Positions 652 through 22,270 of a stretch of DNA of 22,825 bases are shown here, in pieces. Position 1 is the first letter of the stretch; each line of letters opens with the position of its first letter. The translations under genes and the position numbers were made by a program. Origin of the DNA: Paramacrobiotus metropolitanus (lineage: Eukaryota > Tardigrada > Eutardigrada > Parachela > Macrobiotidae); contig NW_026570654.1 of assembly GCF_019649055.1 (NCBI RefSeq), positions 1-22,825 of the forward strand, written 5' to 3'. The notes beneath the pieces are model-generated. The model did no database searches and was not told the origin of the DNA. It worked only from the letters and a program-made list of their open reading frames with translations.

Positions 652-820
652 TTATACACGTCGTTCTTCTGTTCTTGGTAAGTCAGGTCCCAATTTCAAG
701 TTTTCGATTATCTTTTTCAATTCAGCTTTTGTTGTATCGTCCACCTCAGGTCCTCGAGTACGTTTTACTGTCCCTGCGTTGACCTTTACATTCTCCATAT
801 GTTCATACGGCTCAACGTAG
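652..820 (-). pseudogene. Pol linker fragment upstream of RT
   Basis: An open minus-strand stretch of about 55 codons runs to a TAA at 652-654. It includes the segment VNAGTVKRTRGPEVDDTTKA followed by an amphipathic run (ELKKIIENLK). Its position, just before the RT fingers, fits the helical lead-in of Ty3/Gypsy pol. It contains the element's recurring octamer at 780-787, read as K-V. It has no start codon and is separated by frameshifts from the RT fragment on one side and from the acidic pol segment on the other. I infer it is a decayed internal part of the polyprotein, not a gene of its own. Confidence 0.5.
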
Positions 821-921
821 CCGAAGCTGATTTTTCTTCACGATCCTGTATTTGCTACTATGATTCGCAATGACGATTTCGAAGTATTTTCCTCTATGAT
901 CCGTCACTCCTGCCAGACACT

Positions 922-1880
922 TCAGTTTCCACTTGTGGGAACCGGTGTAAACATCAGCTTGTTCTGGGCCGGTGCATATTTTCCCATCTTGACCTTTACC
1001 CTTGTGCAGTTTGACGGTTTCAATTTAATTCTTTGATCACTGTAGACTTTAATCACATCTTTCGACATTCTGGCTTTTTCCACTTTCAACCTTCTGACTT
1101 TAATATCCTTTTTTTTCTCATCTACTTCGTCATCCTCATCCAAGTCCATTAAATCCTCTTGCTCCGAAAGGTCACTTACACCTGAATCTTCCGAAGTTGT
1201 TGAGTTATCGCGAACTCGTCACTCTGAATCTGAGTTACTGCTCTCATATTCTTGTGCAGTAGCTTGACTTTGTTAGTCTTTTTCAGTGGGCGTTCGTCAA
1301 CTCCTTCGTCTTCTGACGAAAGGTCACTTTCGTTTTCCCGCGAATCGCTAAGTTTTTTCGCTTTCGAATTTTTGAGCAGGGGTTTGTCCCCTTTTTTTGC
1401 CTTTCGCCCATTTCGTGCGGCGACTCTCGGGTGACTCCTTGCTACTCGGATTCTCGCTGGTGACCTTTCTGATTGGTCGGAGTTTGACCTTTCTTCGTCC
1501 GATTTTGACTTTTCCATTTCATTTATGTTTTCAAAGCTCGTTAATGGCTTTTCGGTCAGCTCGGTCGGCGGACATTCCTCACCGTTATCGAGTGACCTTT
1601 CCCCGTTTTTTGCCTCAGTTACTGGGTTTTGCTGTTCATTCGATATTCGCTCCACTTCCTCCTTAAACTTCCTCCACATTTCACCTCTATCCGTTAACAT
1701 CTGCGCGATATCGAAAGCCGACTTTGAACTTTCTTCTGTTTCATTGGATCCTCCTTCAAGTATCTCTTTGACCGGTTCCTCTTTTTCCGCTTCTTTTACA
1801 GTCCCTTTATCAATTCCATCCTGTTGAACTGTTTCGTAGCCTTTAGGTCGTTTGGGGCCGACGAAAATGCAGTTTGCCAT
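922..1880 (-). pseudogene. Acidic/lysine-rich pol linker segment, frameshifted
   Basis: Two overlapping frames look like one former coding run. From 1880 to 1176 there is a Glu/Lys/Ser-rich protein of about 234 residues with repeated E-R-S (GERSLDN, EERSNSD, SERSPAR) and an acidic patch (SDLSSEDEGVDE). It ends at TAA. The second frame is open from about 1215 to 922 and continues the same acidic style (STTSEDSGVSDLSEQEDLMD, then DLDEDDEVDEKKK). A single frameshift near 1200-1230 therefore probably separates them. There is no recognisable fold; the composition predicts disorder. The octamers at 990, 1167, 1319, 1461, 1485 and 1593 are read as K-V, D-L, D-L, R-S, R-S and R-S. Low-complexity drift is possible, but long open frames with a common style argue for former coding. 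Confidence 0.5.
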
Positions 1881-2076
1881 CAGTTCTTCGGTGATTCATC
1901 ATTTGGAATCGTTTCATACATGCACCACGTATCACCGCCTCGTTCGGGGTAATCCACTCGTCTGGATCTGGTGCAAAGGTCACCTTTTTCTTTGCATCAA
2001 CTCGGTAACCTTCTTCTCCGGGTTACTTGTAATTCTCTCATATCTTTGACATCAAATGGGAATTTCTCTTTCGAAT

Positions 2077-2262
2077 TTATTCCAGTATTTTCAAATGCTT
2101 CTTCGGTCCCTCTTTCAACGCGTTGTAATACGCTTCGAGTGACTCAAACAGGTGTACAAGTCCTGCCGGGAAAATTATCGTCCTCCCTTCACCTTTGTAC
2201 ATGTGGTTTACGAAAGTCCCAGAAAGGTCAACTCTTGCTTCTTCCCAACTCCCCTTCTTCGT
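2077..2262 (-). pseudogene. Continuation of pol linker after an in-frame TGA
   Basis: The protease ORF ends at a TGA (2263-2265), but the same frame stays open for another 61 codons to TAA at 2077-2079. It reads as credible protein, including VDLSGTFVNHMYKGEG and LVHLFESLEAYYNALKEGP. I read the TGA as a nonsense mutation in a formerly longer polyprotein. Readthrough is possible, but the context gives no specific support for it. Between 1880 and 2077 short blocks of plausible coding jump between frames (for example KKVTFAPDPDEWITPNEAV near 1990-1935), which points to further indels. No known domain is recognisable. Confidence 0.5.
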
Positions 2263-4008
2263 TCATCTCTCTATCTCTCTTTCAAATCTCTTTTCGGTTG
2301 CTACCGGGTCAAGGGGATCTTGGATTCCCTTTTCAACACGTTGTAGCCAATGATTTAGCCATTTGCCTCTCCCAATTATAAAGCTTTCCACGCATGACAG
2401 CCACGTTCGATATCTATTCCAATGATACCGTTTGATGTGTGGTTTCCACATTTCGTTTGTCCGCATGATGCTTTTCGCTTCCTTTTGGGCATGACCTTTA
2501 AGGTCAGCTATTGCGGCATTACATTTCGGCCATTCTGAAAGGTCATCTTGGGAAGCATTTTCGCAACATTCTGCACATTCCCATTGTGGTTGTATTCTGC
2601 ACGGGTCCTCAAAGTAACCGTGGTGACAACTCCCGGCTCGTTCTTCTGGAGTTAATGTCCTTTGACTCGCTTGCGGTTTTACCTTATCCTGTGCTGTAGT
2701 ATCCTCCTCGCATTCGGTTGGAGTCACGCTTTTGTCCTCAGAGGATATCTCGATGACCTCTGGTTCTTTTGGTGTTCTGTGACCTTTCAACTGTTCGAGT
2801 GCCTTGTTACGAATTTCACTTGTGAACATCTGTTCCTCTTCAGCTATTCGTTTCAAAACCCGTAACCTTTCACTCTTTTTATCCTTCCATACTTTAGCTG
2901 TCTTTATTCCCAGTGCCTCTGGTACTGGGATAGGCGTTGCCCACTCCCTGCCCGGCACGAGCGATTGTTTCGCCGCAGCTGTCGCTTCTTTCTGTGTGGC
3001 AGCTATTTCTTCAAGTGTTTTTGACCTTTCGTCATTGATAGCAGAGTGTGGTTCGAAAAAGGGTTCCTTTTGAGGGTCACGTTCTGTTACTTCTTCTTTA
3101 GCTTCATCTGGTGACCTTTCATTTTGGGTAGCAGATCGTGGTTCGAAAAGGTTCGAGGTACGCTCTGGTTCCAAGTTCCCAGTCGCTGGTAACCTTTCGT
3201 CTTCCTTTCCCAGTGCCTCTGGTACTGGGATAACTTTTCCATTTTCGTTTATCGTTTCCAGTGCCTCTGGTACTGGGATAATTTCTTCCTGCTGCACTTT
3301 TGTCATTCCCGGTGCCTCTGGTACTGGGATGACCTTTTCTCTTCCCTTTTTTGTCAGCATTGTCCGGTTTAACGTGTTTTCGATCTCTTGCCGAATCATT
3401 TGCAACTGCCCAAATGGTGACAATTCTTTTTGCGTCATCTTTTTCTTTACGTTTCCCGGTGCCTCTGGTACTGGGATTAGCGTTTTATTAGCAGTTGGAA
3501 CGTTTTCCTGTTTTTCAAGTTCGGTGACCTTTCCGACTTGTACTTTGGCAACTGGTTTCGGGTCATCTTCCTTTTCTTCTTCACCTTCATTGTCCATCAA
3601 TACGAATTTCTTTTCCAAGAAGTCAAATCCCAATAACACTTGTACGTCGTCACACTTCGGTCGGACGTAGAATGAATGTTCGCTTGTCTTCTTCCTTAAG
3701 GTCACTGGTGCTACACAGTAATGCGTCACCAGGAATCCTGACGTTCCACTAATTCCGTTTATTTTCACCAATCTGTCTGGTGGCAATGGGAGCATGTGAA
3801 GTCCATTCTTCTCACAAAACGGTTTGCTGATCAGCGACGTCTCAGCGCCGGTGTCCAACATTGCGTTGACCTTTATGTCTCCCACTTTCACTTCGTGTGT
3901 ATACGCTTCAATTCTTTTGGGCAATTTCCCGTTTTGAATCTTCAATGTATGAATCTTACATTTCACGGGAATGAGCGATACTGGTCCTGGATCCATATCG
4001 GGAAGCAC
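2263..4008 (-). CDS. Pol segment: retropepsin-type aspartic protease plus long charged linker
   Basis: The protease would process the polyprotein. Residues about 36-140 form the domain: DIKVNAMLDTGAETSLI (catalytic LDTGA, residues 51-55, about 3844-3858) and LLGFDFLEKK (125-134), the second conserved block. After it comes a charged linker of some 440 residues with five copies of IPVPEA(P/L) (from residues 178, 227, 244, 260 and 360). A cysteine cluster follows at 461-482, C-x8-C-x7-C-x2-C-C, with a further C at 496; it could bind zinc but matches nothing I know. The C-terminal part is Trp-rich (MWKPHIKRYHWNRYRTW). The first codon is not ATG (GTG at 4008). The frame is the same as the upstream ORF, separated only by TAA at 4036-4038, so this is an internal polyprotein segment. 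A long spacer between protease and RT is atypical for the family. Confidence 0.82.
   Translation of the reverse strand: MLPDMDPGPVSLIPVKCKIHTLKIQNGKLPKRIEAYTHEVKVGDIKVNAMLDTGAETSLISKPFCEKNGLHMLPLPPDRLVKINGISGTSGFLVTHYCVAPVTLRKKTSEHSFYVRPKCDDVQVLLGFDFLEKKFVLMDNEGEEEKEDDPKPVAKVQVGKVTELEKQENVPTANKTLIPVPEAPGNVKKKMTQKELSPFGQLQMIRQEIENTLNRTMLTKKGREKVIPVPEAPGMTKVQQEEIIPVPEALETINENGKVIPVPEALGKEDERLPATGNLEPERTSNLFEPRSATQNERSPDEAKEEVTERDPQKEPFFEPHSAINDERSKTLEEIAATQKEATAAAKQSLVPGREWATPIPVPEALGIKTAKVWKDKKSERLRVLKRIAEEEQMFTSEIRNKALEQLKGHRTPKEPEVIEISSEDKSVTPTECEEDTTAQDKVKPQASQRTLTPEERAGSCHHGYFEDPCRIQPQWECAECCENASQDDLSEWPKCNAAIADLKGHAQKEAKSIMRTNEMWKPHIKRYHWNRYRTWLSCVESFIIGRGKWLNHWLQRVEKGIQDPLDPVATEKRFEREIER
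2910..3478 (-). repeat. Five dispersed copies of a 21-bp IPVPEA-coding repeat
   Basis: The plus-strand core GTGCCTCTGGTACTGGGAT recurs at about 2911, 3211, 3259, 3310 and 3457, encoding IPVPEA on the minus strand. Spacing is irregular (300, 48, 51, 147). Three copies have the flanks TCCCAGT...ACTGGGA, a 7-bp inverted repeat, so the unit could fold. In the two other copies one arm base differs (P instead of L in the peptide). This is an internal coding repeat within the protease-RT linker. Confidence 0.85.
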
Positions 4009-4035
4009 TTGCCCTTTAGCTGGAGTGCTGTGACC

Positions 4036-4935
4036 TTACAGTATTTCGCTCAGCTTATCGATTCTGTGTGGAACGTTAGTTCGAACATCGTAAAATTTTC
4101 GCGGTTTTGTCTTGTCGGCTTGCTTCTCCACAGCGGTTTTACCACTGGTGACCTTTTCAGCGTTCTGCACTTGCTCGTTTGCTTTTGTGCCAGCTGTGTG
4201 ACTTTTTGTCACTTCGTTTATCGTCTGATGAATCAACTCTTCTTTACGGTTTTCATTTCGCTTATCTCGCAGCTTCTCCATGACTTCACTTGTTATTTGC
4301 TCCGCTCGCTTCAATTCGTCTTCTTCGCTATCTTTCATCTCATCTGGTGACCTTTCATATGTAATCATATCATATCCCTTTTCGGTCATCCATTCGATCA
4401 CCTTCGCGGACACTTCATTGTTCGTTTTCGTCTGATCAATTTGTGACGACATTCCGTCTGTTCGGGCTGGTGACTTATCGTTTGCATCCTTATGCAGTGC
4501 TTGTGATAAGTCCCGTGACCTTTCGACTGCGTTATTCTGTTGCGTTTGCGTCATCTCATTTGACCGTCCTTTTTGTTCATTTTGCGCTAAGTCCTGTGAC
4601 CTTTCGTTGCGCTTCATGACAAATCCGCCGTTTGTCAGCTTTTGTATGGGGACTTTTTCTCCATAATTCGGCGGTTTATCCTGTGGCGGAGCATTACGTG
4701 AATAATTCCAGTCAGCGCATGTCTTCTTATATTCCTCTGCGTTGAATGCTGGGACTGGGTTCGGTGACCCTTGGGTTGGTTTCCCGGTAACCAACTCTTC
4801 TAATCGCTTTCTTTCACATTGCGTTCGCAACTGTTGCATGTCCCAGTAATCCTCCTGTGACATTCTCGCTTTCTGCTTTGCTTTTGGCGTCACAGGTATC
4901 CACATCCCGTGATTGCCATTCGGTCTGTAGGCCAC
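4036..4935 (-). CDS. Pol/Gag-Pol linker ORF upstream of protease
   Basis: This is a 299-codon hydrophilic ORF rich in Glu, Lys, Asn and Gln, with repeated E-R-S motifs (ERSPDE, ERSRDL, ERSQDL) encoded by the element's octamer. I see no known domain; composition predicts disorder. It has no ATG at its 5' end (GTG), lies in the -1 frame relative to the preceding ORF (overlap 4890-4935 and a little beyond), and is in frame with the protease ORF downstream. Its terminal TAA sits inside TAAGGTCAC, one base from the recurring AAAGGTCAC, so the stop looks like an A-to-T nonsense mutation in a copy of that motif. It is best read as the part of the polyprotein joining the repeat region to protease. 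Confidence 0.6.
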   Translation of the reverse strand: MAYRPNGNHGMWIPVTPKAKQKARMSQEDYWDMQQLRTQCERKRLEELVTGKPTQGSPNPVPAFNAEEYKKTCADWNYSRNAPPQDKPPNYGEKVPIQKLTNGGFVMKRNERSQDLAQNEQKGRSNEMTQTQQNNAVERSRDLSQALHKDANDKSPARTDGMSSQIDQTKTNNEVSAKVIEWMTEKGYDMITYERSPDEMKDSEEDELKRAEQITSEVMEKLRDKRNENRKEELIHQTINEVTKSHTAGTKANEQVQNAEKVTSGKTAVEKQADKTKPRKFYDVRTNVPHRIDKLSEIL

Positions 4936-6001
4936 TTTTTGCCATTTTCCTTCTGTTGCAGAGTTACTGCATCAACAAGTGAGTCTTCGGAGTCCTGTTG
5001 TGCCGGTTCGCTATTCTTCTGCTGCGCTGTTCGCAGTGTCAAGTCTGTTTCTTGACCTTTTAACACGGCACTTTCACCGTGACCTTTAGCGTTCGCATCT
5101 GCTCCGCGACCTTTCACTTGAACTTTTCCAACGGAAGGTGACCTTTCATCTTTACTACTAACGGTGATATTCTGCTTAATCCATTCTTGCCTTGCCAGCT
5201 TCTCTTCTTCGTCTTCTGAACAGTTCCAAAACTTTGGCTTTATCTCTCCGTAACATTCGCAACTTGGTTCATTCGCTTTGTCATTTTCTGCCAAAAATTT
5301 TCGGAATTTCGCATGCTGCTCATTTTCTTCTTGCGCAGTATCGTTCTGCGGTTTGTTCTGATTCAGCAGCGCCTGTTTAATCTTTGCATTCCGTTGTGCG
5401 CGTCGTTGTGCTAGCACTTCTTCGCTGCAGTACGGTGACCTTTCGTTTTGCTGCACTTTTTGCAGTGTCGCGCTACCGTCACGACAATTTCCACTCGCAG
5501 TACCATTCTGCGGTGACCTTTTATCCACTTGAACATTTCCACTCGCAGTGCCATTCTGCGGTGACCTTTTGTCCACTTGAACGTTTCCACTCGCAGTACC
5601 ATTCTGCGGTGACCTTTTGTCCACTTGAACGTTTCCACTCGCAGTGCCATTCTGCGGTGATCTTTTATCCACTTGAACGTTTCCACTCGCAGTACCATTC
5701 TGCGGTGACTTTTGGTTCTGTGACGGTATCCTTATAACCGTTCCAATTTCTTTTTGCGATGACGGCATCCATATAGCCGTTTCTATTTGCTGTGGCGGCA
5801 TCCATCTAGCCGTTTCTTGTGGTTGCGGCATCCATATAGCCAGTCCATTTTGCTTTTTCGCTGACGGCATCCATATAGCCGTTGCAGTGGTCACGTTCAC
5901 TGCAGTACCATTCTGCAGTGGTGACCTTTCCGTTCCCTTTTTATCCGGTGGTTTAGGGTCGGGTCGATCAGTAGGCTCACCGGTGCCTACTGATCTTGCC
6001 C
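4890..6001 (-). CDS. Repeat-rich ORF entered from gag by -1 frameshift
   Basis: This frame is open from about 6076 but has no ATG near its beginning, only GTG at 5900. It is positioned to be entered by -1 slippage at the heptamer at 6002-6008. It begins GTGEPTDRPDPKPPDKKGTE, then has about five AIWMP-type repeats (near residues 9-70 counted from the GTG), then five 16-residue repeats built on RSPQNGTASGNVQVDK. The remainder is charged. There is one cysteine pair (CECYGEIKPKFWNC). No enzymatic domain is recognisable. It overlaps the following ORF (4036-4935) in the -1 direction. In the overlap the sequence C-AAA-AAG in the zero frame is a near-canonical slippery site, but I see no strong stem at the right distance. 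An indel there is equally possible. Confidence 0.62.
5491..5717 (-). repeat. 48-bp tandem repeat, about five units
   Basis: CCACTCGCAG recurs at 5491, 5539, 5587, 5635 and 5683, an exact 48-bp period. Each unit encodes 16 residues built on RSPQNGTASGNVQVDK, so the array keeps the frame. Each of the first three units carries one TGACCTTT (5514, 5562, 5610); the last two have single-base variants of it (TGATCTTT, TGACTTTT). Copies differ at only a few positions, indicating recent expansion or homogenisation. Confidence 0.95.
5722..5885 (-). repeat. AIWMP-coding short repeats
   Basis: Variants of GACGGCATCCATATAGCC occur about five times, each roughly 30-40 bp apart, encoding (T/L)AIWMP, ARWMP or VIRIP on the minus strand. 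They directly precede the 48-bp array in the coding direction. A related IWMP/MWIP sequence recurs near 4900. This is a second family of coding repeats with no assigned function. Confidence 0.8.
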
Positions 6002-6008
6002 GTTTCCC
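5966..6008 (-). promoter_or_regulatory. -1 programmed ribosomal frameshift signal at the gag end
   Basis: On the minus strand the gag frame reads CAG GGA AAC GGG, giving the heptamer G-GGA-AAC (6002-6008) in the exact X-XXY-YYZ phase. After a 6-nt spacer (5996-6001) comes a perfect 11-bp stem: GATCAGTAGGC (5985-5995) pairs with GCCTACTGATC (5966-5976 on the plus-strand map) around an 8-nt loop. The gag TAG (5987-5989) lies inside the stem. GGGAAAC is an established slippery sequence in retroviral gag-pro junctions, and 5-9 nt to a stem is the normal geometry. A -1 slip leads into the downstream open frame. Function is inferred; the sequence elements are directly visible. Confidence 0.82.
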
Positions 6009-8143
6009 TGAACCGGCGCCCCACCTTGTTGTACGCCTTGCACATTCCCTTGCACATTTCCTTGAACTTGTTCATTCACCGGGCCACCTCCGTTTTGCTG
6101 GCCACCACCCTGTTGGTAGTTTCCTTGGCCGCCTCCATTGTTCTGGCCTCCTCTAAAATTGCCGCGGCCAAAGCCTCTGTTTCTTCCTCTGAAGCCGCCA
6201 CGGCCGAAGCCACCGCCGCGATAGCCGCCGCCTTGGCCACCGCCATTTCCATTTCCATAGTTGCCGTTTCCATTCCCTTGTTGGTTTTGGAAGTTTGCTT
6301 TGTGCTGGTACCATTGGGCGATAAGGTCATATCCATTTGCGATCGCTTGGCGCCAACCACCAAGTCCGCGCAATCGTTGCCACTCGTTAAAGGCGAACAG
6401 GTTCGGGTTCTGTTCCGGTGGTGTGTTGGCGAATTTGCATCCCTGGGTCTGGTGATTGCCATACATACAGTACTGGCACATCTGCGCGTTGTTTGCCACC
6501 CATCCATCAATCATCTGGAACTTAAATTCGGTTCGTGACCCTTGATTTTGCTGGTTGTTGTTCTGGTTTCCTCTGTTTGGCTGATAGTAACCTTGACCTT
6601 GACCCTGATTCTGGAAGTTTCCTTGACCTCCGTTCCAATTTCCATTTCCATATCCGTTTCCACCGAAATTTCCGTTACCCACTCCTTGTTGTGGTAACCC
6701 AACATTGATAGGGGCCACGTTCTGTGGGGCTGGTGGGGCCACATTCTGAGGTACCGGTCTCACTTGAGCTGCCGCCTGTATCGCCGCCACCATTGCGTAC
6801 GTCAACGGTTGCCCAGTCTGACTGTCGATAAAGGTCACCTCCTTTGTGGCCTCTTGGACCGGTGCCTCTCTGCGATACTCAACTGGCTGTTGAACCGGTG
6901 CAACTGCCGCTCTTTGCTGTGGCAACATCTCAACTTGACCTGTCCGGATCGTCACATAATCTTGGCTGCGTTGACCTTTGGGCGCTTTATATTTCTCTTC
7001 TCCCGCTGACCAATGACGGAAGAAATCTTTAATCTCGGTTGGAGTCCTGCACTGTTGTGTGCGTAGTGCCTTATAAAGGTCACCGTCCACTCTACATCCT
7101 TCGATCAGGAAACCGACTGCCTGCTTTTCAGTTATGATCCTCTTCGCCTTGTATTTCATAATCGCTTGATAGAATTGATCAAGCGATTCTTTTCCAAGGT
7201 CAAATTTTCTTGCCATGGCTTCTCGTAATCCGAGGACTTCTTCATCCCGATCTCCATATTCATCTTTGAATTTGGCCATCCATTCTGTAATTGTATATTC
7301 TGTTTCCTCCTGGAGTGCGATCTCTCTCTCTCCTTCGAACCAGGTTTTCGCTGGTCCTTTCACTGCGCTGGCTATCTCGATTAAGATCTGGTCGTCGGTG
7401 AGGTGATACGTTCGTTGGGTATCCCTGACCAGTTGTGTCCAACCATTCACTGCGTCGCGACTTCCGTCAAAGGTCACCAATGTCGTTTTCCGTGCCATCG
7501 AATTGAGTGCATTTACCAATTTTTGTGTTGGATCTTGATCTTCTACTGCACTAGAATCACTGTCGTCATCTTCCTGGTTTCGCTTCGCCTTTGCGTAGCG
7601 GGACTTCCTTGGGCGTTCTTGACGGCTAGGCGGTCTATCCCGTTCTTGACGGCTAGACGGTCTATCCTGTTTCCTTTCGTCGATGAAAATTTTTGTTTCG
7701 ATATGTGGAGGAAATTGGGAAGGGTCACCTTGATTCGTAAGTGAATAACTTTCCGATGGTGGCTCTTTGTCATCTTTGACCTTTTCCCCGTCCTTTTCGT
7801 TTTTGACGCTTCCTCTGCCAGTACCAGTTCGTAGCGGCATGTCGAAGTGGAAGCTTTTGCCCGTGCCCGTTTCATGCGCCTTGCTGTAACTGGGCGGGGG
7901 CGACTCCACTGTTGTAGTCCTGACTCCATATTGCAGAAGCTGTTCGTCTTTGTGCTTGTTGGACATAACAAGCGCCTTATTCTCATCTTCGAGGCGCCTG
8001 ATTTTTAAGTCAAATTGCTCTTTCTCGTTCTTCAGATTTTGGTTCTCTTGGTTGACCTTTAACATGTTCTGGTGGAGTTGGATTGTTTTCTCCTGGATCA
8101 CCTTCTCCGTATCATTTTCCACCCTCCTGATGTGTTCCGCCAA
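5987..8143 (-). CDS. gag: Gag, C-terminal part: capsid-like domain, CCHC zinc knuckle, RGG tail
   Basis: Gag would form the particle and bind element RNA. Residues 1-70 complete a coiled coil. PPSY at 83-86 (7886-7897) matches the PPxY late-domain pattern. A basic Arg/Ser stretch (about 155-188) includes a short repeat (RQERDRPPSRQERPRKSR). Residues about 205-390 resemble the Ty3/Gypsy Gag capsid domain (TFDGSRDAVNGWTQLV, AKTWFEGERE, ESLDQFYQAIMKYKAKRI). The zinc knuckle is C556-x2-C559-x4-H564-x4-C569 (6437-6478). The tail is Gly/Asn/Gln-rich with RGG/FGRG repeats, suited to RNA binding. The 5' end has no ATG (the first internal one is at codon 27, about 8065) and overlaps the upstream coiled-coil ORF in the -1 frame. 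The two are therefore probably one protein split by an indel or a second frameshift. Confidence 0.85.
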   Translation of the reverse strand: MAEHIRRVENDTEKVIQEKTIQLHQNMLKVNQENQNLKNEKEQFDLKIRRLEDENKALVMSNKHKDEQLLQYGVRTTTVESPPPSYSKAHETGTGKSFHFDMPLRTGTGRGSVKNEKDGEKVKDDKEPPSESYSLTNQGDPSQFPPHIETKIFIDERKQDRPSSRQERDRPPSRQERPRKSRYAKAKRNQEDDDSDSSAVEDQDPTQKLVNALNSMARKTTLVTFDGSRDAVNGWTQLVRDTQRTYHLTDDQILIEIASAVKGPAKTWFEGEREIALQEETEYTITEWMAKFKDEYGDRDEEVLGLREAMARKFDLGKESLDQFYQAIMKYKAKRIITEKQAVGFLIEGCRVDGDLYKALRTQQCRTPTEIKDFFRHWSAGEEKYKAPKGQRSQDYVTIRTGQVEMLPQQRAAVAPVQQPVEYRREAPVQEATKEVTFIDSQTGQPLTYAMVAAIQAAAQVRPVPQNVAPPAPQNVAPINVGLPQQGVGNGNFGGNGYGNGNWNGGQGNFQNQGQGQGYYQPNRGNQNNNQQNQGSRTEFKFQMIDGWVANNAQMCQYCMYGNHQTQGCKFANTPPEQNPNLFAFNEWQRLRGLGGWRQAIANGYDLIAQWYQHKANFQNQQGNGNGNYGNGNGGGQGGGYRGGGFGRGGFRGRNRGFGRGNFRGGQNNGGGQGNYQQGGGQQNGGGPVNEQVQGNVQGNVQGVQQGGAPVQGNGQDQ

Positions 8144-9789
8144 CTGGGTAACATCTCTTTTAATTTCGTATATTCTTCAGCTGCCGCTTTCAGCTGGTTC
8201 TTTGTGTGGGTGACCTCGTCTTCTCTCATCATTGCCGTTTGGGTCATATCAATCAACTCCGTGTTGAGTCTGATGATCTCCTGTGACTTCTGATGGACCG
8301 TTTGTTGCCATTCTTTATCTTTCAGTTCGAGCACCGTGACCTTTTCATCCAGGAGGTGTGCCTCATGTTTCCACCTCCTGCCCTGTTCGGTAGATGTCTT
8401 AGTGGTTCCTTTCAGCTCGGTATTCTCTTCGGTGACCTTTCTGTTATCCTCCTTCAACGCCTGGTTCTCTTCCATGACCTGTCTGATTTCATTGCTCAAC
8501 CGTGCGCCTTCGGTGGCTGTGAGTTCACGCAGGTCCTTAGCCACTTTGACGGCGTCGTCGGCTCTTCTCTGATGATCCTGTGATTCCTTCTGGAGGGTTC
8601 TGATACTCTCGTCGCGCAGCTTCAGTTCGTTTCTGAGCTTAAACACCTCGTTGGTATTTGTCAACAACCGTTGAGTCGCGTCAATGAGTTTGGCCGCGTA
8701 TTCGTCTCTCTTAGCTTCCGCTTCAGTGACCTTTAGTTTCAGTGAGTCACATTCGTCTTTCAGTTCGGCTAAGTGCCGTGACCTTTCCGCTGTTTCTTCG
8801 GACATGCTCTCATTAAGGTCACTGACTGCAAGGTGACCTTCCATTTCTCTGTCATCTACCATTTTCAGGTATTCCTCTGCCATTTCCTTTTGTTTTTCGT
8901 ATTTGACCTTCCATTCTTCTGCCGTGCTCTCCAGATAACCCCGTTGTTGTTCCATTTCAAATAGTCGGGTCTCGAGCGATACCAGTCTCTCTTGGTATTC
9001 CTGCTTTCTTTTAGCCATCTGACCGTCCTTGGTGTCGAGTTCACTTTCCAAGTCTTGAACACGTCTCCTCAAAGTCAGTGTAGGGCTAATCGGTGAAGGT
9101 GGTCGTACATTTATGACCTTTCCAGTTTGCGTCCGTTCAATGAGATGCTCTGGTATTTCTTTGAAAGGTGTCATCCCTTCAGCGCGGTCAGCTTGTCTCA
9201 TCGCAGATTGGAAGGACATATTCATCGTCGTTTCATCGTCCGTAAAATATGATTCATTTGATTCATCTGACACCATTGGAGTAGCCCAAAGGTCATCGTC
9301 TGCCGCTTTGTCATTCAATGAAAGGTCACTCAGTCCCAGTTCAGCAAATTCCTCTTCGGTGACCTTTGTCTTTTCCGTTTCCGATCGAGTCAGGTTCACA
9401 TTTTTATCCTGCTCATTCGTTCCGCTGATGGTAGCATCCAACTGTGATGCTCCAACCGGTTCCGCTCCTCTTTCTGTGGGCTTTTCCTCCCCGGTGACCT
9501 TTATCTGGTTTATCGGATTGCCTCCCGCCGCAGACGCGGGAGTTTCCTTTCCGTCGCCACTGGAGCTCTCTTCGTTCTGTATTGCTCCGAGCGCCACTTC
9601 GTATGTGTTGTCGCTGCCTTTGCTGTCTTTTCTTGCAAAGGTCACAGCCGCTCGGGTCTGTCTGTCATGTCCGACTGGACGCGCGAGCGACTTATATTCC
9701 TTCTTATAAGGATCGACTGTGCCTTGTTGTGATCCTCGGGAGCTCCTGCTTCCCTGACTGCTGGTGGATGTCGGTTCTTCTTTGTCCAT
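8098..9789 (-). CDS. gag: Gag, N-terminal part: disordered head plus long coiled coil
   Basis: The likely start is the ATG at 9787-9789 (NMDKEEPTSTSS...); the open frame extends slightly further to a GTG at 9834. The first 230 or so residues are polar and disorder-like. From about residue 240 of the ATG-started protein to its end, dense heptads (RRRVQDLESELDTKDGQ, EENQALKEDNRKVTEENTEL) predict roughly 300 residues of coiled coil, which is large for a Gag. It ends at 8098 in a short out-of-register tail. Coiled-coil character carries on in the -1 frame of the next ORF, so the break near 8150 splits one rod. No canonical slippery heptamer is present in the overlap, which favours an indel over programmed shifting. 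Twelve octamer copies lie inside, read as K-V, R-S, D-L or V-T-F. Confidence 0.8.
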   Translation of the reverse strand: MDKEEPTSTSSQGSRSSRGSQQGTVDPYKKEYKSLARPVGHDRQTRAAVTFARKDSKGSDNTYEVALGAIQNEESSSGDGKETPASAAGGNPINQIKVTGEEKPTERGAEPVGASQLDATISGTNEQDKNVNLTRSETEKTKVTEEEFAELGLSDLSLNDKAADDDLWATPMVSDESNESYFTDDETTMNMSFQSAMRQADRAEGMTPFKEIPEHLIERTQTGKVINVRPPSPISPTLTLRRRVQDLESELDTKDGQMAKRKQEYQERLVSLETRLFEMEQQRGYLESTAEEWKVKYEKQKEMAEEYLKMVDDREMEGHLAVSDLNESMSEETAERSRHLAELKDECDSLKLKVTEAEAKRDEYAAKLIDATQRLLTNTNEVFKLRNELKLRDESIRTLQKESQDHQRRADDAVKVAKDLRELTATEGARLSNEIRQVMEENQALKEDNRKVTEENTELKGTTKTSTEQGRRWKHEAHLLDEKVTVLELKDKEWQQTVHQKSQEIIRLNTELIDMTQTAMMREDEVTHTKNQLKAAAEEYTKLKEMLPSWRNTSGGWKMIRRR

Positions 9790-9864
9790 GTTGATCGGAT
9801 AACTTGGACGCTCCTGCCAATTGTTCTCACACACACGTTATTGTATGGTTTATTCAATGATCCT

Positions 9865-10380
9865 AAAGGTCACTCTGTACCTCCGAAATTTTTCTAAGTC
9901 CTTATTAAAGGTCACTTTTCGGCTGAAAAATTTCGACTAAGTCCCGTTTAAAGGTCCCTTTTTTGATAAAAAGTTCGAGAGGTTTGCCCTAAAAGGTCAC
10001 TTTCGGACAAAACTTCGAAACAGCTTTTACAGTTTGAAACACGTTAGCGAATGAAATCCTACAGCTGCAAATATCGCTGTACCACTATTCAGTTCAATTT
10101 CACTTCGATAAAGGTCACCGTTCGTCAGTTTCAGATCATAAAGGTCACTTAAATAGGTCAATTTGGTCAATTCCAACTTTTTTGATAAAGGTCACTTTTC
10201 AAAGTCAAAGGTCAACTTCTGGTCTCAAAGGTCACTTTCCGACACAATTTATGTTAAAAGGTCATTTTCCAGCTCAATTCGAGTTAAAGGTCAATTTCCA
10301 GCTCAATTCTATCAAAGGTCACTTTCTAGCTCAATTTTGATCAAAGGTCACTTTTCCTTTATCTTAACTCAAAAGGTCAC
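9865..10380 (+). repeat. Leader array of 13 AAAGGTCA octamers
   Basis: Octamers start at 9865, 9907, 9992, 10110, 10140, 10187, 10207, 10227, 10257, 10286, 10314, 10343 and 10372, all in the plus orientation (antisense to the element). The last six are a tandem array with 28-30-bp periods, built of AAAGGTCACTTTCCAGCTCA-like units. The spacings 20, 20, 30, 29, 28, 29, 29 are close to whole helical turns. The array lies between the putative promoter and the gag ATG, the same relative place as the Su(Hw)-site insulator of Drosophila gypsy. AGGTCA is the classical nuclear-receptor half-site; receptor binding here is inference. Confidence 0.9.
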
Positions 10381-10472
10381 TTTCCGTCTCCCTTATCTCA
10401 TCTCAAATCGAATTTCCCATTATCGCTCAAGTTCAACGGAAAATCCCCATTCGGGTTGTTTACTTTGTTCTG

Positions 10473-10680
10473 ATTGGTCCGCTAGCTCAAATTATTCAGT
10501 TCAAATTTCAGCCAATTACAGCTCAGATAACTGACCAATCACGTTAGTCCATTTAAATTTATATAAGCCTGACGTCACGGTCAACGGCCAGACGTGCGTA
10601 TCGTGTGCAAAACCCCGCCTACTTTTACGCTCAGCTCAGTACGGACCAATAAGAATTGCCAATTTTACCAACTAGCCAAT
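10473..10680 (-). promoter_or_regulatory. Putative LTR (U3) promoter region
   Basis: Reading the minus strand there are three ATTGG boxes (10676, 10659 and 10646 on the map), then the palindromic CRE TGACGTCA (10570-10577), then TATATAAAT (10557-10565). This order and spacing suit a pol II promoter firing leftwards into the leader and gag. Further CCAAT/ATTGG boxes lie at 10535, 10512 and 10473. The TATA sequence can be read on either strand, so a plus-strand promoter is not excluded. The LTR limits are undetermined. Confidence 0.5.
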
Positions 10681-10940
10681 CCCGTAATTAATAACGGTTT
10701 TCTACCTGTTAACCGTCCGTCCGTTCCGCGTTCCACGGGGAAATGATCCAGATGATCCAGATTCTTCTTCCACTATCCGTTCCCGCGTCGCCGCTGTTCC
10801 GTAGCGTGCCTCGCGCTATTAATAGGCTACTGTGCCGGCTGTGCCGTAGCAGCAGTAGTTTTACGCTCTACTCCAGTTTGGAGGAGTCTGATCTGGTCTT
10901 TTCCGTGCGCCCCCTTCGGCGTTTCGGCGCTTCTGCCCCA

Positions 10941-11089
10941 CGGCTTAGGATTCGCTGAATCCTTGCCGAGTACCAGTGACACCAGTGTAGGTCTTCGCTG
11001 AAGACTCTACACCGAGGAACACTGGCGACTGAACTCTTGCACTCTTTCACAGCTGAGGAAACAGCACAGGTCTTCGCTGAAGACGCTGT
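10941..11089 (+). repeat. Three hairpins sharing a TTC-GCT-GAA core
   Basis: Hairpin 1 has AGGATTC/GAATCCT arms around GCT (10947-10963), with CGGC/GCCG outside. Hairpin 2 has GTGTAG-GTCTTC/GAAGAC-(T)-CTACAC around GCT (10985-11012). Hairpin 3 has GTCTTC/GAAGAC around GCT with outer ACAGC/GCTGT (11061-11089). The stems differ but are each self-complementary, with a shared GCT loop. It is not known whether they belong to the LTR or the flank. Confidence 0.7.
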
Positions 11090-11099
11090 ACCGAAAACC

Positions 11100-11615
11100 A
11101 AAGCTGGTAATCCGCGTCCGATGGAGGAATTGCACCGCTTGTGGTGTTGCGCTTTGCTGTAGGACAGACCTTTGCCTTACTGGTCACGGTAAACAAGTCA
11201 AATAACAGGCCAGATTTGCCTGACAAAGTCAAATCAGATCAGTCAACTCAAATCAGAGAACCGCTGTCGGCTCTGCTACCATCTAAAGCTAGATCCAACT
11301 GTGATCCAGATACGGAGACCTAAACGGAATAGATCCCGTGGAAGTGAGCAATGCGATCTGGATTGCGAACTACGCGGAATCACGAAACGTCGCACCGCTA
11401 ATTGCTGACTTTTTATAATATTGAGAATTCCGACAACAGAAAATCAATAATGATCGGCGCAGCTCGATCGTAAAACGTGGAGCCAATTCCACACTGTGTA
11501 ACACTGTGCAGCACGTGCTATGCCGCGCCCACTAACAAAACATAAGCCAATCAAAGGCGAGACACAACACAGACACGTAATCCAGTGGCGAGTAGCGTCA
11601 CGAGCGTGAACGCTA
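11100..11615. other. Stretch without a supported gene
   Basis: Only short unremarkable ORFs occur here. No upstream exon like exon A of the intact F-box gene is visible, which is consistent with the neighbouring F-box copy being truncated at its 5' end. The right boundary of the retroelement may fall in or just before this stretch, but I could not identify a target-site duplication. Confidence 0.5.
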
Positions 11616-12422
11616 GTGAACCCCCGCTCACACAGGTTTAGGTTGCCATTGGAGCTGCAGAAAGAAATCTTCCTGTCGCTGGACACCGTTGATCGGCAGC
11701 GCTGTCGTCGCACCTGCCAACTGTGGGAGACGCTTCTGACGTCTGTGGATTTGTGCCAAGATGTCCGCATCTCACGAGACGACTTCGGTCTTCGGTCTTT
11801 TTCGATCTGCGAATTGGATTCGGTCAAATTTGCATACGTGGTGTGCGCTTGTGTCTGCAAGTATAGTATGTCACGGGACTTACGCGCACAATTAGCATCC
11901 ATCCAGGGAACACCTTCTGTAAATTACGGGAAAATTGGACTTTCGCTCATGAAACCGTAAGATTGGTTAAGACCATCCTGGACAGCGCCGGCCTTCGCGT
12001 TCCTCGTTTGATAGAGCATCGCCGATCACTAGCCATCCCGCTGTACTGGAGTCCTTTTAACTTGCACTGGCTGTTTGCTGATCTGGTAGCGCTGAATTCC
12101 CAGCTGGCGTCGCGCTGTGACCGTGTGATTTGGGCAAATTATTCACTGGACTGTCAAGACTACGACGAAGAGGTAGTAATGAAATTCCGCATTCCCGTTA
12201 CTGCCTTCACAGCAGACAATATCGATGAGGCACAAATTTGGGACCTGTTCGAGAAGCATTTGTGTGATAAGGGGAGATGCGATACGCAGCGTATTGCCCA
12301 CTTTATAGCGAATTCGACGGACAGTTCTGGGAAAGCAAAAGGAGTGAAAAGAGTGAGTAACTGTATAAGCTGGTTCCAGCATTTCTAACATAAAGCCTAA
12401 AGGTACAGAATACGGATACATG

Positions 12423-13198
12423 TAGGGTTGTCATCACGTCGTCACGCAGTTTCACAATCACGCCGTTTTCCTGCTCACAATCCCATCGTGCCGAACATTT
12501 GAGGGGGTGATAAAAAAATGTGATGAGTGATGGGACGGTGATGTGATGGGATGAATTTTTATTGTTAAAAATGAAAGGTCAAAATCCGGTTACCTAAATT
12601 ATAGCGCGTCGGCAGTGCAGACATTTTTAACAACATTTTTAACAAATTCTGTGATAGAGCAGTTTAGAATCGAGAAATGCGAAAAGTTGCACAAGCATAC
12701 TATGAGTGACTTGGTTCGCCTCTGGTTTGGTTTGATTTATTTTAAAAATATTCGCAAAAACTTGTAGCAATTTTATACCGTCGTCGTGCTTTGGCAGTAG
12801 AGTTTGTAAATTATCTGCCAAAATGGCCGGAGATTGGGATGCTGAGTGACTGTTGTGGAAGATGATGAAAACATACTTGACGTAATCTCCCAACGGCTTT
12901 CTAGTACTTGCGAACTGCTGCAAAACTGCGAGAACCATAAAAGCTCGTATGCAAGTTTTGGCTTTGAACTGATGTCAACTTGTTGTAGTTAAACTAGTTG
13001 CTTCGGTTTTTTCGACTCTTTTGAAAGGCATCTTTGTTGAAAACAGTTCGCATAAAATTTCGAATTTTTCGTTGTGAAAAATATGTCAGAAATAAATAAA
13101 TAAATAATTATTAATAATCTATCCCACCAATCACATCACTTCCTGTTCACATTCCAGTCACATCCCACCTCCAAAACCTTGGTGGGATGGCAACCCTA
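12423..13198. mobile_element. hAT-type MITE inside the F-box pseudogene intron
   Basis: A 776-bp insert is bounded by 13-bp terminal inverted repeats, TAGGGTTGTCATC at the left and GATGGCAACCCTA at the right (one mismatch). It is flanked by a perfect 8-bp duplication GATACATG (12415-12422 and 13199-13206). An 8-bp duplication with termini starting YARGG is typical of hAT elements. TGATGGGA/TCCCATC-type motifs repeat near both ends, as expected of transposase-binding subterminal sites. There is a 99-codon minus ORF (12639-12938) but no recognisable transposase, so it is non-autonomous. The paralogous intron lacks it, dating insertion after the gene duplication. Confidence 0.9.
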
Positions 13199-16945: not shown

Positions 16946-18925
16946 ATGCAAATATGCGAACGGTCGTTACTGTATTGGTGGAATGCCGTGGATGTCGAGA
17001 TTGACGGTCGGCTGCAACGCGGGCTTTTCGGCATGGAGAGGAATGGCAGCACGACGCCGTGTCTTATCGTGGATTTCCGTTGCCCGGCACAGCGATCGGT
17101 CCTGGTTGAGTACGGCACGGTAACTGATAGCCATCCCGGTGGTATAAGCGTAGGAGCTGGCATGGAGGTGCTGGCCCTGTTACGCGACCATCAAGATCGC
17201 CCTTGGACATGGTATCCCGGAAAAGTTCTCCACTCGTTCGAGAAAGGAAGCCTACAAGGCTACGCCTTGGTGGAAGTGACGCGGGCCGAATACCGTTGCT
17301 GCGAACTGGTTCCCTGCTCTCAGATCCGTTGGCCGTTGTCGAAAGAAGTATTCCAGGAAATGGTAACACGAGTTGATCAAATAATCAAACTATATATGAT
17401 ACAATATAAGACATATGAGAAAAATCCACGTACTAATAATTAATGTTTTTTTATACGCTTGTGCACGAGCATAATAAAAACCTCGCGAGTTCGCTAATGT
17501 AGAACAACCTAGAGAATACCGTGTCTCTGGCGGCCGGTCGGTATTGTAAGTGTCCAATGCGAAAAACTCGAAGTATTCAGGTACTGTGGAGGCAGGTATT
17601 CGAGAGCTGCAGTTTCTGCAGGTACCGTCAGAAATCAGTTCTCATTGTTCTACCTTTAGGCGAAAGCATTCGCGCGTAAAAGGCAGGGACTGGGCCGTAG
17701 CAAAGTCTCATCCCGTGACGTTCACGATGATAAACGTTCTGATGATGTGGAAGCGGTGTCGAATGAGCCACCACACAAGAAGAAATTCCGTGCTGATGGA
17801 AGCAAGTTGCGGTTGCCTTTGGAGCTGCTGAAAGAAATCTTCCTGATGCTGGATACCGTGGACCGGCAGCGCTGCCGTCGAACCTGCCAACTATGGGAAA
17901 CACTTCTGACTGCTGCGGATTTATGCAAAGATATCCGCATCTCGCGACGCGACTTCGGTTTGCCCCTTAATGACCATTGGAACCGGGGCCGCGAATGCGA
18001 CTACGTGGTGTCCGCTTGTCTCTTTAAGTATATCACTGCAGCCACGCGTACAATTTGCATTCATTCAACAGGAAGATTCTGTACTGAACCGGAAGATTTG
18101 AGCACAGCCCATGCCGCAGTTGGGTTGGTCAAGAACATCCTGGACCGCGTCGGCCTTCGCGTTCCCCTTTTGATCGAGCCCCGGCGATCACTAGCGATCC
18201 AGATTTATCGGGATAGCGTCTTTGACTTGCGCATGCTGTTTGCTGATCTGGTGGCGCTGTATTCCCAGCTGGCAACGCGTTGTGACCGCTTGATTTGGGC
18301 AGATTATTCGTTGGACTGTGAAGACCAGGGCCCAACGGTTTTCATGAAATTCCGCATTCCATTTGCTGTTTTCACACGAGACAACATCAGTGAGGCACAG
18401 ATTTGGGATTTGTTCGAGAAGCACATGTATTCTGATGGAGAGCCTATAGACACTCAGCGTATTGCCCACTTTATAGCCAATCTGACTAACAGGCCTGCTA
18501 AAGCAGAAGGAGTGAAAAGAGTGAGTAACTTTACGTAATTCCACTTCGCTTTGTATTGGCTTCTTCTTCTTGCCTGCGTCACTTTCGTAATGTTGTGGTA
18601 ATAATGCTGTGTTACCTGCGTATAGTCGTATTGGTGCGTTAAATTGCGAATTCGTTCAATTCTGCAGATTTTGAAGGAATATCAAGCCTGTGATCCGCGA
18701 GTGTCCGCGCATTATCGCGGACACAAGTGGACGTTGTCCAATGTGGCTGCAGTGGACGTGCGCAAACTGAACAAATTCTGCCTGTCCACCTTGTCGGCCT
18801 TCATGAGGATCAGTGGATTTTACGTGAGGCAATGCGAGGAGTGCAGTAATCCCTGCGATGAGTGTGGATGCTGGTCTGATGACCATGGATTTTTGGAATC
18901 CAGTGACAATTCCGAAGACGAGTAG
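16946..18925 (+). CDS. F-box protein with N-terminal WNAVDVE domain, three exons
   Basis: Exon A is 16946-17362, exon B 17660-18520 and exon C 18668-18925, about 511 residues. All junctions are phase 0 with GT-AG: ...QEM|gtaaca, tttag|GCGAAA, AAAAGA|gtgagt, ctgcag|ATTTTG; a TAG in frame directly at the exon B acceptor supports that boundary. Exon A encodes WNAVDVEIDGRLQRG, FRCPAQRSVLVEYG and MEVLALLRDHQDRPWTWYPG, an unknown domain that could be Tudor/Agenet-like. Exon B has a basic linker and the F-box (RLPLELLKEIFLMLDTVDR...CRRTCQLWETLL), then a long leucine-rich C-terminal region (LVKNILDRVGLRVPLLIEPR, QIWDLFEKH). Exon C has ACDPRVSAHYRGHKWTL, a Cys cluster C-x2-C-x3-C-x2-C-x-C and an acidic tail. 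F-box proteins normally link substrates to SCF ubiquitin ligases; the substrate is unknown. An upstream non-coding exon is possible. Confidence 0.82.
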
Positions 18926-20432: not shown

Positions 20433-20574
20433 CAAAGTTTTGAAAATCCTTGAAAGACTGTGTGTATTTGTAGATGTGGGTGAAAGTACTCCAGTAGTCT
20501 TGCAAATGTCACTAGTTTGTCTTGAACCGCTTCGCTTTCTCATAGACTGTGTCCAGAAATCCTACCAGTCAGCC

Positions 20575-22270
20575 ATGTTTGCGATCTTGAAGAACCAGAT
20601 CAACGTCGTGGGCGACAACAACTTCCTGCTGTATGGCCGCGTGGTGGACGTAGCCGACGATGCGCTGGGCATCGATCTGCTCTGCGCCGGGCGTCGACGC
20701 GAGCGCATCCCCTTCCAGCAGCTGCTCTGTCGCCCAGCGCAGAACCTGGCATGCCTTTTCTTTCTGGGTATATACCACTGGGAGAGCGTGGCCGTGGAAG
20801 TGCTGCTGCGACGGGACGGTACGTGGCGCTGGTGGTCAAGCGACAAGCGCATTCGACCGCTGCCCGCCGGTTGGCGGGGGGCTTCCGCAGAACAGCTGCA
20901 GCGGATGAAGGAGGTGCACCTGGCGCTCGTGGACGGCGACGGAAGCCAGGACACGGACGCTCAGGGTCAGGTGGTCTGCTTCGACGTCGCGGATGGCCAG
21001 GTGCAGTACGTCGTGGACCTGTACGGTGGCGGCGGGCTGGGACAGTCTCAGGATACGGCACAGGTTGGTCATTATTTCCAAGACAGACTTTTACTGCAAG
21101 ATTCTGCGGTACGAATTCTTTGCGTTGGGATTTGCAGAAAATCGTGGATGAACTGCACAGCGCGCTGACCCAGCGCCTCCCGGTCATCCTGTGTGAGATG
21201 ACGGCCCGGCTGGAAGGCGGCACACCGGATGCAGCTGGTGCGCTGGGCGTGGACGTGTGACCGCACGTGTTGGCCCAGATGGACACACGGACGCTGACCC
21301 GGCTGCGCGTGGTGTGCCCAGCGTGGAACACCATCCTGGACGCCGCGGCGCTGTCGACCTCCCTGCTCATCAAGAAGGACGGGACCGGCTAGCGTGTGCG
21401 CGCGCTCGACTACCCCCTAACGGCACCCTCCTACACGCTCTGGGCCCATTCTGCACGCTCTGCGCCCCTCCACGCGCATCCTCCTCTACGCCCGCGACCC
21501 CCAACACCCACTCCTCACCGTGGACTGCTTCACCGTGCTGGACGCGCTGCGGATGGTGGGAGGCGGGGTGCGGCGCGTGCCGGCGCTGTACGTGGCCGGG
21601 GCGGAGTTGGTCCTGGATGTGGGCCATGTCTGGGAGTCTTGGAACTCGGTTTGCGGGACGCATGAACCGAAATGGGGAGGGGCGGCCGCCGCGTGACTGG
21701 CTGGACCTCCGGTTGGGTGATGTCATCGCGTGGTTCGGGAATATGCCGTGCGATGCGTTTATCTGGTCCGGGCCCGGCTGCAGCTGCTGCATAAACTCGG
21801 GCCAATGGGACTGCGCCTTCGGCACGAGTCGTATGGAAGTGGGCGGCAGCATCTCCTGGGCGCGACTGCCGGTCAGCGGGGACGGGGGCTGGGCGTGCGC
21901 GGTGTGGAGTGCGGTGGACGCGGGACTGGAACCGATCAGTAGTTTCTCAGAGCGAACTTGAAAAAGCCAACACCGCTAACATATTGAGTATCTCTGCATT
22001 AACTTTTTCTGAATCAGCTCCAAAACGTTGCGGTTGTCAATCACTACGTTGATGACAGTCCTGGGATCCTCAATCGCCAACCGTCAGCCTCATCTGTGTT
22101 GGTCATTCGTAGATTCTGTGCACGATGCAGACCGCCGATCCGCGTCCGTCCTCGCATTACCGCGGGAAGCAGTGCTGCACGGATGGAGTGGAGGATCTCG
22201 CTTGGAGAATCTGTCGCGCATTACGCTGCACTTTCTGCTGACGCTACTTAGTATTGAGGAATTCTCTTAA
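20575..22270 (+). pseudogene. Third F-box family member, GC-rich, disrupted
   Basis: It has the same three-exon plan as the intact gene. Exon A starts at the ATG at 20575 (MFAILKNQINVVGD) and includes VAVEVLLRRDGTWRWW, matching VLALLRDHQDRPWTWY of the paralogue. It ends CAG|GTTGGT at 21063, phase 0. Exon B begins after TTTGCAG at 21138, phase 0 (KIVDELHSALTQRLPVILCE). An in-frame TGA at 21258 precedes the F-box (VLAQMDTRTLTRLRVVCPAW), and a TAG follows at about 21390. Further family-like sequence (LYARDPQHPLLTVDCF, VLDALRMVGG) is in another frame to about 21690. Exon C begins after TCGTAG at 22113 (ADPRPSSHYRGKQCCT), then shifts frame (ENLSRITLHFLLTLL). About 20580-21960 is visibly GC-rich, unlike its neighbours and paralogues. 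An old pseudogene, or a diverged gene with assembly errors. Confidence 0.68.

Follow-up and report, generated by a model that had tools for sequence, protein, structure and literature searches.

Transposons carry binding-site arrays in their noncoding parts. In Drosophila gypsy, the Su(Hw) insulator comprises 340 bp of the 5' untranslated region with 12 Su(Hw) sites (PMC2374998; this and all other papers are cited from partial texts). The Arabidopsis DNA transposon VANDAL encodes an anti-silencing protein, VANC, and its words lie mainly in noncoding DNA (PMC5735166). Sites for HNF4-alpha occur in Alu repeats (PMC3252374), and the octamer AAAGGTCA is the monomer site of NR4A nuclear receptors, the NR4A response element NBRE, according to the introduction of PMC4777543, the discussion of which prints a different string for it. 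Here we describe a predicted Ty3/Gypsy-type long terminal repeat (LTR) retrotransposon in a 22,825-nucleotide contig of the tardigrade Paramacrobiotus metropolitanus (NW_026570654.1), analyzed whole and called the window below. Its leader and coding body are filled with AAAGGTCA, and synonymous codon choice itself seems bent to carry a transcription factor site at most permitted places.

Octamer content of the element

The first-pass annotation of the window, made from the letters by themselves, had counted 58 copies of the octamer or its complement between positions 780 and 10380 and one further copy at 12574. Recounting gave the same numbers, 59 in the whole window, of which 25 read on the plus strand and 34 on the minus strand. 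The reported extension of most copies to AAAGGTCAC was likewise found (40 of 58). The many one-base variants said to lie between the copies are instead scarce: AGGGTCAC, TAAGGTCAC, and AAAGGTCCC occur five times, three times, and once in the whole window. Neither of the two shuffling controls proposed at that stage reproduced the observed count. Dinucleotide shuffles of 780 to 10380 (n = 300) contained a mean of 0.58 and a maximum of 4 octamers versus 58, and synonymous-codon shuffles of six open reading frame (ORF) pieces, with protein and codon usage kept (n = 500), contained a mean of 4.1 and a maximum of 11 versus 40.

The element lies on the minus strand, begins at about 11630, and runs off the contig end at position 1; the span first assigned to it, 780 to 10380, does enclose the octamers, but the element is wider. 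Thirteen octamers form an array in the leader (9865 to 10379, minus strand); they share one orientation, reading TGACCTTT on the coding strand, are often spaced at 28 to 30 bp, and are conserved in other aligned copies. The 45 body octamers (780 to 9644) occur in both orientations, 34 reading AAAGGTCA and 11 reading TGACCTTT on the coding strand; 40 lie inside the six ORF pieces and five fall outside them. The octamer occupies five of the six reading-frame phases, and in the sixth it would create an in-frame stop.

We defined a permitted place as an ORF position where synonymous codons alone would allow the octamer with the protein unchanged. In the window ORFs, 40 of 47 permitted places are filled, 32 of 38 in coding orientation and 8 of 9 in the reverse. 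In a second copy, on C1, 33 of 50 are filled; one of its pieces, L071, has 20 of 29 coding-orientation and 5 of 7 reverse places filled, and the other, L092, has 8 of 14 filled and no permitted reverse place. An element of a sister family, C (L069), fills 32 of 43 (26 of 36 in coding orientation and 6 of 7 in the reverse). In the window, by comparison, filling ranges from 0 to 20% across the 24 one-base variants, versus 85% for the octamer, and the highest variant filling in the other two sets is 17%, apart from one case of 1 in 3. The ninth base is G at none of 17 permitted places in the three sets, and all 12 ERS tripeptides of the window ORFs are written GAA AGG TCA. Because one-base variants are rarely filled and the ninth base is never G, the octamer appears to be read as 8 bp with both A's needed, matching the NBRE. 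Selection appears to have driven most codon-permitted places to the octamer.

The equal filling of both orientations argues that the octamer acts as double-stranded DNA, not RNA. An alternative is that the words act in RNA, with body AAAGGUCAC pairing with leader GUGACCUUU and thereby compacting or marking the genomic RNA. Such pairing would suit a leader array all in one orientation and a body in which most words (34 of 45) are opposite, and it would also accommodate leader and body words that changed together in sister families B1 and B2, described below. We nevertheless regard it as very improbable, given that both orientations are filled alike in the window, L071, and family C and that the G-U-compatible body word AAAGGTTA is filled in 2 of 28 places.

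Other copies, selection, and a candidate host reader

The genome searched comprises 169.8 Mb in 533 contigs, one of which, whole, is the window. With a leader-array query, 40 of 113 candidates were scored and 30 loci, including the window, were fetched; copies without the array are underrepresented, since the query contained it. All 29 other fetched copies carry the octamer, 13 to 21 times each in 2.4 to 3.3 kb, which bears out the enrichment in further family members that had been set as a check. In L071 and L092, which were chosen through a protease search and not through the array query, 34 octamers lie in 11.3 kb outside the leader.

For the conservation tests, sites were taken from one copy at a time; six reference copies with two regions each gave 12 tests. 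Motif windows were identical in other copies in 79 to 94% of cases and other windows in 21 to 48%, and in each of the 12 tests none of 5,000 random draws reached the motif mean. Variants common to at least three copies numbered 0.00 to 0.09 per motif column versus 0.26 to 0.46 elsewhere. Private variants, in motif versus other columns, numbered 0.24 to 0.32 versus 0.33 to 0.35 in the array and 0.20 to 0.23 versus 0.18 in gag. Because shared variants avoid the octamers while private ones strike them similarly, we read the pattern as purifying selection on octamers while the lineages were active, with neutral decay once copies had inserted. A restriction of the octamer to the window copy is ruled out by the other copies that carry and conserve it.

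The protease search (150 of 781 candidates scored) placed relatives in identity bands, to which we assigned the family names used here: about 89 to 100% for A, the window's family; 79 to 85% for B1 and B2; and 72 to 76% for C. From leader to protease, DNA identity is 0.64 between A and B1, 0.55 between A and C, and 0.51 between B1 and C; body evidence for B1, B2, and C comes from one element each. Family C shares the octamer: L069 has 38 in 8.5 kb, and the leaders of five copies each contain 5 to 7 clustered TGACCTTT within about 220 to 380 bp. Octamers of A recur at the same place in C in 15 of 29 comparable cases, versus 123 of 5,102 other windows.

These data also bear on whether the word could be made by a protein-level or codon usage effect (ERSP, KVT, and KGH peptides) or by a mutational or conversion bias. 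The words do sit in recurrent peptides. We give this explanation the least credence of all, however: a protein-level or codon usage origin is ruled out by the synonymous shuffles (4 versus 40), the filling of both orientations, the scarcity of variants, and family B1, which encodes its six ERS peptides without the octamer, and it is further opposed by the use of five of six phases and by the 13 copies in the noncoding leader. Against a mutational or conversion bias, private mutations strike octamers about as often as their neighbors, and shared ones do not.

The octamer had been annotated as an extended nuclear receptor half-site, and it matches one, specifically the monomer site of NR4A. An NR4A gene is present in the host, on C45. 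Among PDB chains, those of the NR4A group are the best matches to its two DNA-binding domain exons (NGFI-B and Nurr1); the exon that follows carries the C-terminal extension VVRTDSLKGRRGRLPTKPK, near-identical to that of Nurr1. The NR4A C-terminal extension contacts the 5' A's in the NGFI-B-DNA structure. Genome-wide, elements included, AAAGGTCA occurs 42,562 times versus 15,522 for the reversed word, and AAAGGTCAC occurs 19,414 times versus 3,461. The motif had also been proposed for a search outside the element. In 91.5 kb around host receptor genes, AAAGGTCA occurs 21 times versus 3.2 expected under a third-order model (reversed word, 8 versus 8.5); the excess is less clear in arbitrary host DNA (below). 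Of 25 background host octamers, none falls in sequence similar to the A, B, or C pieces, the only repeats compared. An octamer that is an NR4A site, the presence of an NR4A gene, and the excess of the octamer in host DNA together make a host reader likely for the words of families A and C. As a separate observation, the roughly sixfold octamer excess around host nuclear receptor genes (loci L039 to L067) may reflect receptor cross-regulation.

We favor, by a small measure, the reading that the octamers are binding sites for a sequence-specific protein, which in families A and C is most likely the NR4A of the host and which probably keeps the provirus open and transcribed. The element would keep the octamers as double-stranded DNA sites, which a sequence-specific protein would have to bind at many points; in A and C, a host NR4A-type receptor would bind AAAGGTCA as a monomer. 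Selection would fill most codon-permitted places and maintain the array in the leader. Receptors along leader and body would recruit coactivators and keep the chromatin of the provirus of about 24 kb open and transcribable. The leader array would serve as an internal enhancer or as a boundary, in the manner of Drosophila gypsy, and the label along the body would act against silencing as the VANDAL/VANC label does, except that its reader would belong to the host. The sister B families have moved to another word, probably with another reader. We infer NR4A binding in vivo, and a gain in open chromatin or transcription, from sequence. NR4A is a receptor class known for stress induction; if it binds the octamers, a stress-inducible receptor class would be linked to mobile-DNA control in a tardigrade.

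Sister families with another word

Observations from several sides weigh against an NR4A-read label. The interval from 10381 to 11640, which holds the LTR and the first ∼0.9 kb of the leader, contains no octamer, and because of this absence the octamers would not be an LTR-promoter enhancer in the simple sense; at the same time, saturation of coding DNA goes beyond what an enhancer or insulator needs. Some one-base variants exceed the shuffle level (TAAGGTCA, 4 versus 0.5 in the window and 3 versus 0.6 in the C1 copy; AGAGGTCA, 4 versus 0.4 in the C1 copy) and are possibly decayed octamers. In 28 kb of arbitrary host DNA, AAAGGTCA occurs 4 times versus 1.1 and the reversed word 5 times versus 1.9, and the enrichment in host DNA rests on a biased sample. 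Receptors other than NR4A could read the octamer. NR4A proteins can also repress, and need not activate: Nurr1 is reported to recruit CoREST to silence HIV (PMC9295971).

The sister B families add to these points. B1 is closer to A than C is, yet its five loci contain no octamer in 15.5 kb; at A's octamer places it agrees in 0 of 26 cases versus 314 of 4,846 other windows, although 15 of its places would permit the octamer. B2 has 8 octamers in 11.4 kb from five loci and fills 2 of 12 permitted places. To our knowledge, the AG[ACT]TC[AG] (AGHTCR)-type words found in B1 and B2 are not an NR4A site.

Leaders and reading frames of the B families carry words of their own. GA[A/G/T]CT occurs 27 to 31 times versus 6.5 to 8.0 expected in four B1 leaders and 19 to 29 times versus 5.3 to 9.2 in four B2 leaders, whereas the A leader has 15 GACCT versus 1.4 expected and 10 GA[A/G/T]CT versus 4.6, the latter within shuffle reach. 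Leader base frequencies rest on 22 A, 4 B1, 4 B2, and 1 C leaders, the landmarks having been missed in 8 of 30 A loci and 4 of 5 C loci; for L080 and L086, the leader was taken up to the end of the locus instead of a gag landmark. When protein and codon usage are held constant in reading frames, AGGTCA is strongly enriched in two A copies (z = 15.7 and 13.6) and in C (z = 7.7), where AG[ACT]TC[AG] shows no enrichment (z = 0.6, 0.1, and -0.7, respectively). In B1 and B2, AG[ACT]TC[AG] has z scores of 5.9 and 7.5, and AGGTCA is weakly enriched (z = 1.9 and 2.2); scrambled and reversed control words lie between -2.1 and 2.1. The pattern AG[ACT]TC[AG] was picked after inspection of the B leaders, and the sole unguided test was a ranking of 184,320 degenerate patterns, which placed it first in B1 and 53rd in B2, behind AGAT[CG]-type words. 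In one aligned example, A has TATGAAAGGTCACCAG, C has TACGAAAGGTCACCAG, and B1 has TATGAGAGATCACCAG. Genome-wide, two B words are hardly or not enriched (AACGATCT, 5,662 versus 3,492; AACGAGCT, 3,945 versus 4,515).

The B words are softer than the A word, and the B families have switched to this other word and hence probably to another reader. The proposal that the element spread a host-factor site along its whole body stands for A and C in being DNA-level, selected, orientation independent, and matched by a host NR4A gene, but not for the sister families, which mostly carry another word; the integration role suggested with it found no support in these observations. Two B2 leaders, L083 and L084, retain 2 or 3 TGACCTTT among the new words, as if between two labels. 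A feature common to all LTR elements of the host is ruled out as the sole cause of the octamers, since B1 lacks them and the reverse transcriptase locus C1:1506077 has no forward-strand AAAGGTCAC in 1484695 to 1547784, a comparison of one example on one strand.

A fixed host receptor does not account for everything, because sister families closer to A than C is mostly use another word, and a reader encoded by the element itself is a live rival. It could be a protein from the linker, from the Cys/His stretch, or from the 3' ORFs that binds the element's own word, as VANC does in VANDAL, with word and reader changing together between families. The word is indeed family specific at conserved architecture (AAAGGTCA in A and C, AG[ACT]TC[AG] in B1, and AGAT[CG]-type in B2), none of the scanned pieces of ORFs downstream of pol matches Pfam, and VANDAL offers a precedent of short words that differ between related families (PMC5735166). 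Yet the integrase zinc finger is the sole DNA-binding domain recognized in the scanned pieces, which exclude the last ∼5 kb before the 3' LTR, VANDAL words lie mainly in noncoding DNA, and the A/C word is an exact host receptor site enriched in host DNA around receptor genes. We rate this rival as doubtful, though as the strongest of those considered.

Other host nuclear receptors, including some with divergent P-boxes, might also read the words, the B families having moved to a paralogue; this is less probable still. The host genome yields 63 zf-C4 exon hits, several with unusual P-boxes (e.g., NGCSG, DGCSG, and TGCKS), and such receptors are candidate readers of altered half-sites. Among the zf-C4 translations are some that we take to be receptors of FTZ-F1 and ERR type. 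FTZ-F1 and ERR prefer TCAAGGTCA, however, and CAAGGTCA fills only 2 of the 24 window places that permit it; permitted-place counts rule out the FTZ-F1/ERR-type TCAAGGTCA as the element's word. We also know of no description of AGATCG or AGCTCG as a receptor half-site.

Finally, the word could be a host silencing mark, targeted by a host repressor (possibly NR4A with a corepressor), from which the B families escaped by changing it. The absence of the word from B1 and its near absence from B2 would suit such an escape, as would the reported silencing of HIV by Nurr1 through CoREST (PMC9295971). An attacked element should lose the word, however, and in A it is kept by selection and is near-maximal in coding DNA, so that we think a silencing mark very improbable.

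The preferred reading, of sites bound by a sequence-specific protein that is most likely NR4A in A and C, can be widened to include the B families. Tentatively, and with less confidence than in the reading itself, we suggest that a giant retrotransposon lineage writes a body-wide DNA identity code, switched per family in leader and genes together, by which NR4A or another reader holds the provirus open. The sister families are a natural word swap, and, should NR4A bind, the element offers a direct test of self-marking for expression or anti-silencing: one reader, two words.

Architecture of the element and comparison with described systems

We classify the element as a Ty3/Gypsy-type (Metaviridae) LTR retrotransposon with a full length of about 24 kb, on the basis of same-contig LTR pairs, a protease-reverse transcriptase-RNase H-integrase order, and a primer-binding-site-like word after the 5' LTR. 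The 5' LTR (11284 to 11630, minus strand, ∼350 bp) has approximate edges: identity among 30 aligned copies starts at about 11630, and the inner edge is set by the primer-binding-type word alone. With 11290 to 11600 as the query (40 of 253 candidates scored), 12 same-contig LTR pairs were found 17.2 to 24.2 kb apart, seven of them at 23.8 to 24.2 kb and five at 17.2 to 22.0 kb; the 3' LTR of the window copy falls beyond the contig. Both LTRs of 8 of the 12 pairs score equally against the query, which suggests that the insertions are young. About 24 kb between LTRs is very long for an LTR retrotransposon (C76:624420-648847, C7:773269-797727, and C83:401891-426352).

All features in this paragraph are on the minus strand. 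The primer-binding-site-like word TGGTAGCAGAGC (11270 to 11281, by pattern position) is presumably of initiator-Met tRNA type. The leader, read from the sequence, extends ∼1.5 kb from this word to the first gag-type ATG at 9787 to 9789 (9790 to 11269). Next come a gag-type ORF (8098 to 9837, measured between stops; 10 octamers; coiled-coil-like on inspection) and a gag/nucleocapsid-type ORF with a G/N/Q-rich C terminus (5987 to 8176, 6 octamers), neither with a Pfam match. Two linker ORFs (4890 to 6071 and 4036 to 4971; together 4036 to 6071, 12 octamers) contain ERSP, KGH, and KVT peptides and 48-bp tandem repeats. The protease ORF (2263 to 4035, 8 octamers) matches retroviral aspartyl protease at about 3619 to 3894 (PF13650, E = 4e-8; PF13975; RVP). 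Between protease and reverse transcriptase lie a Cys/His-containing stretch (2386 to 2655) without a Pfam match and an ORF read at 1176 to 1895 (4 octamers). The Cys/His stretch is shared with the sister-family protein P0009, to which a 231-amino-acid piece is 64% identical over 228 positions, not every Cys being common to both. The start of reverse transcriptase, identified by sequence reading, is at 196 to 579, where the block is cut by the contig end, and the fragment has no Pfam match.

L071 aligns to the window at 87.8% over 3.6 kb and continues through RVT_1, RNase H, H2C2, and rve, the Ty3/Gypsy order, to further ORFs. The ORFs after integrase (P0006, L092, and L093) matched no Pfam family above the cutoff in the pieces scanned, and among 8,000 candidates scored, P0006 has two protein relatives at E ≤ 0.001, both from P. 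metropolitanus. In-frame tandem repeats encode IPVPEA-type peptides (3195 to 3480) and ERSPQNGTASGNVQVDK-type peptides (5488 to 5713); the octamer sits on the latter. The window also contains two related F-box-like ORFs on the plus strand (11610 to 12388 and 17660 to 18538). The second, the one scanned, has an F-box match, and the five database relatives found for its protein are all from P. metropolitanus. A GC-rich block (64%) at 21001 to 22000 has long open frames on both strands, and the ORF scanned that reaches it (20526 to 21260) has no Pfam match.

No description of such an element was found among the open-licence papers searched; a tardigrade repeat paper (PMC11071193) treats two other species, and Paramacrobiotus is absent from its main text. 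Four described systems resemble the element in part. With the NBRE (PMC4777543) it shares the identical octamer, both 5' A's being required, but host enhancers are described there with a single response element and the element has 58 in 9.6 kb. With Alu repeats it shares nuclear receptor-type sites on a retroelement, although body-wide saturation by synonymous choice is not described in the cited part of that work (PMC3252374). Like gypsy, it is an LTR retrotransposon whose leader, ahead of gag, holds some dozen closely packed sites for a single DNA-binding protein. Gypsy differs in its word and protein, and in the tardigrade element coding DNA is filled with sites as well and the sister families use a different word; a Su(Hw) insulator was rejected because the array word GTGACCTTT, compared by eye, differs from the TGCATA-type consensus YRYTGCATAYYY (PMC2374998). 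The likeness to VANDAL/VANC consists in a short word reiterated along the element, a one-orientation array in a noncoding part, and words that differ between related families. Membership in a VANDAL-type system was nonetheless rejected, with the words in coding DNA and no element-encoded reader found in the pieces scanned. The Pfam scan of element pieces returned no DNA-binding domain besides the integrase zinc finger, and some ORFs in it are matchless. Unlike in VANDAL, 40 of the 58 octamers lie in the six ORF pieces and five more elsewhere in the body, with synonymous codons recruited to carry the word.

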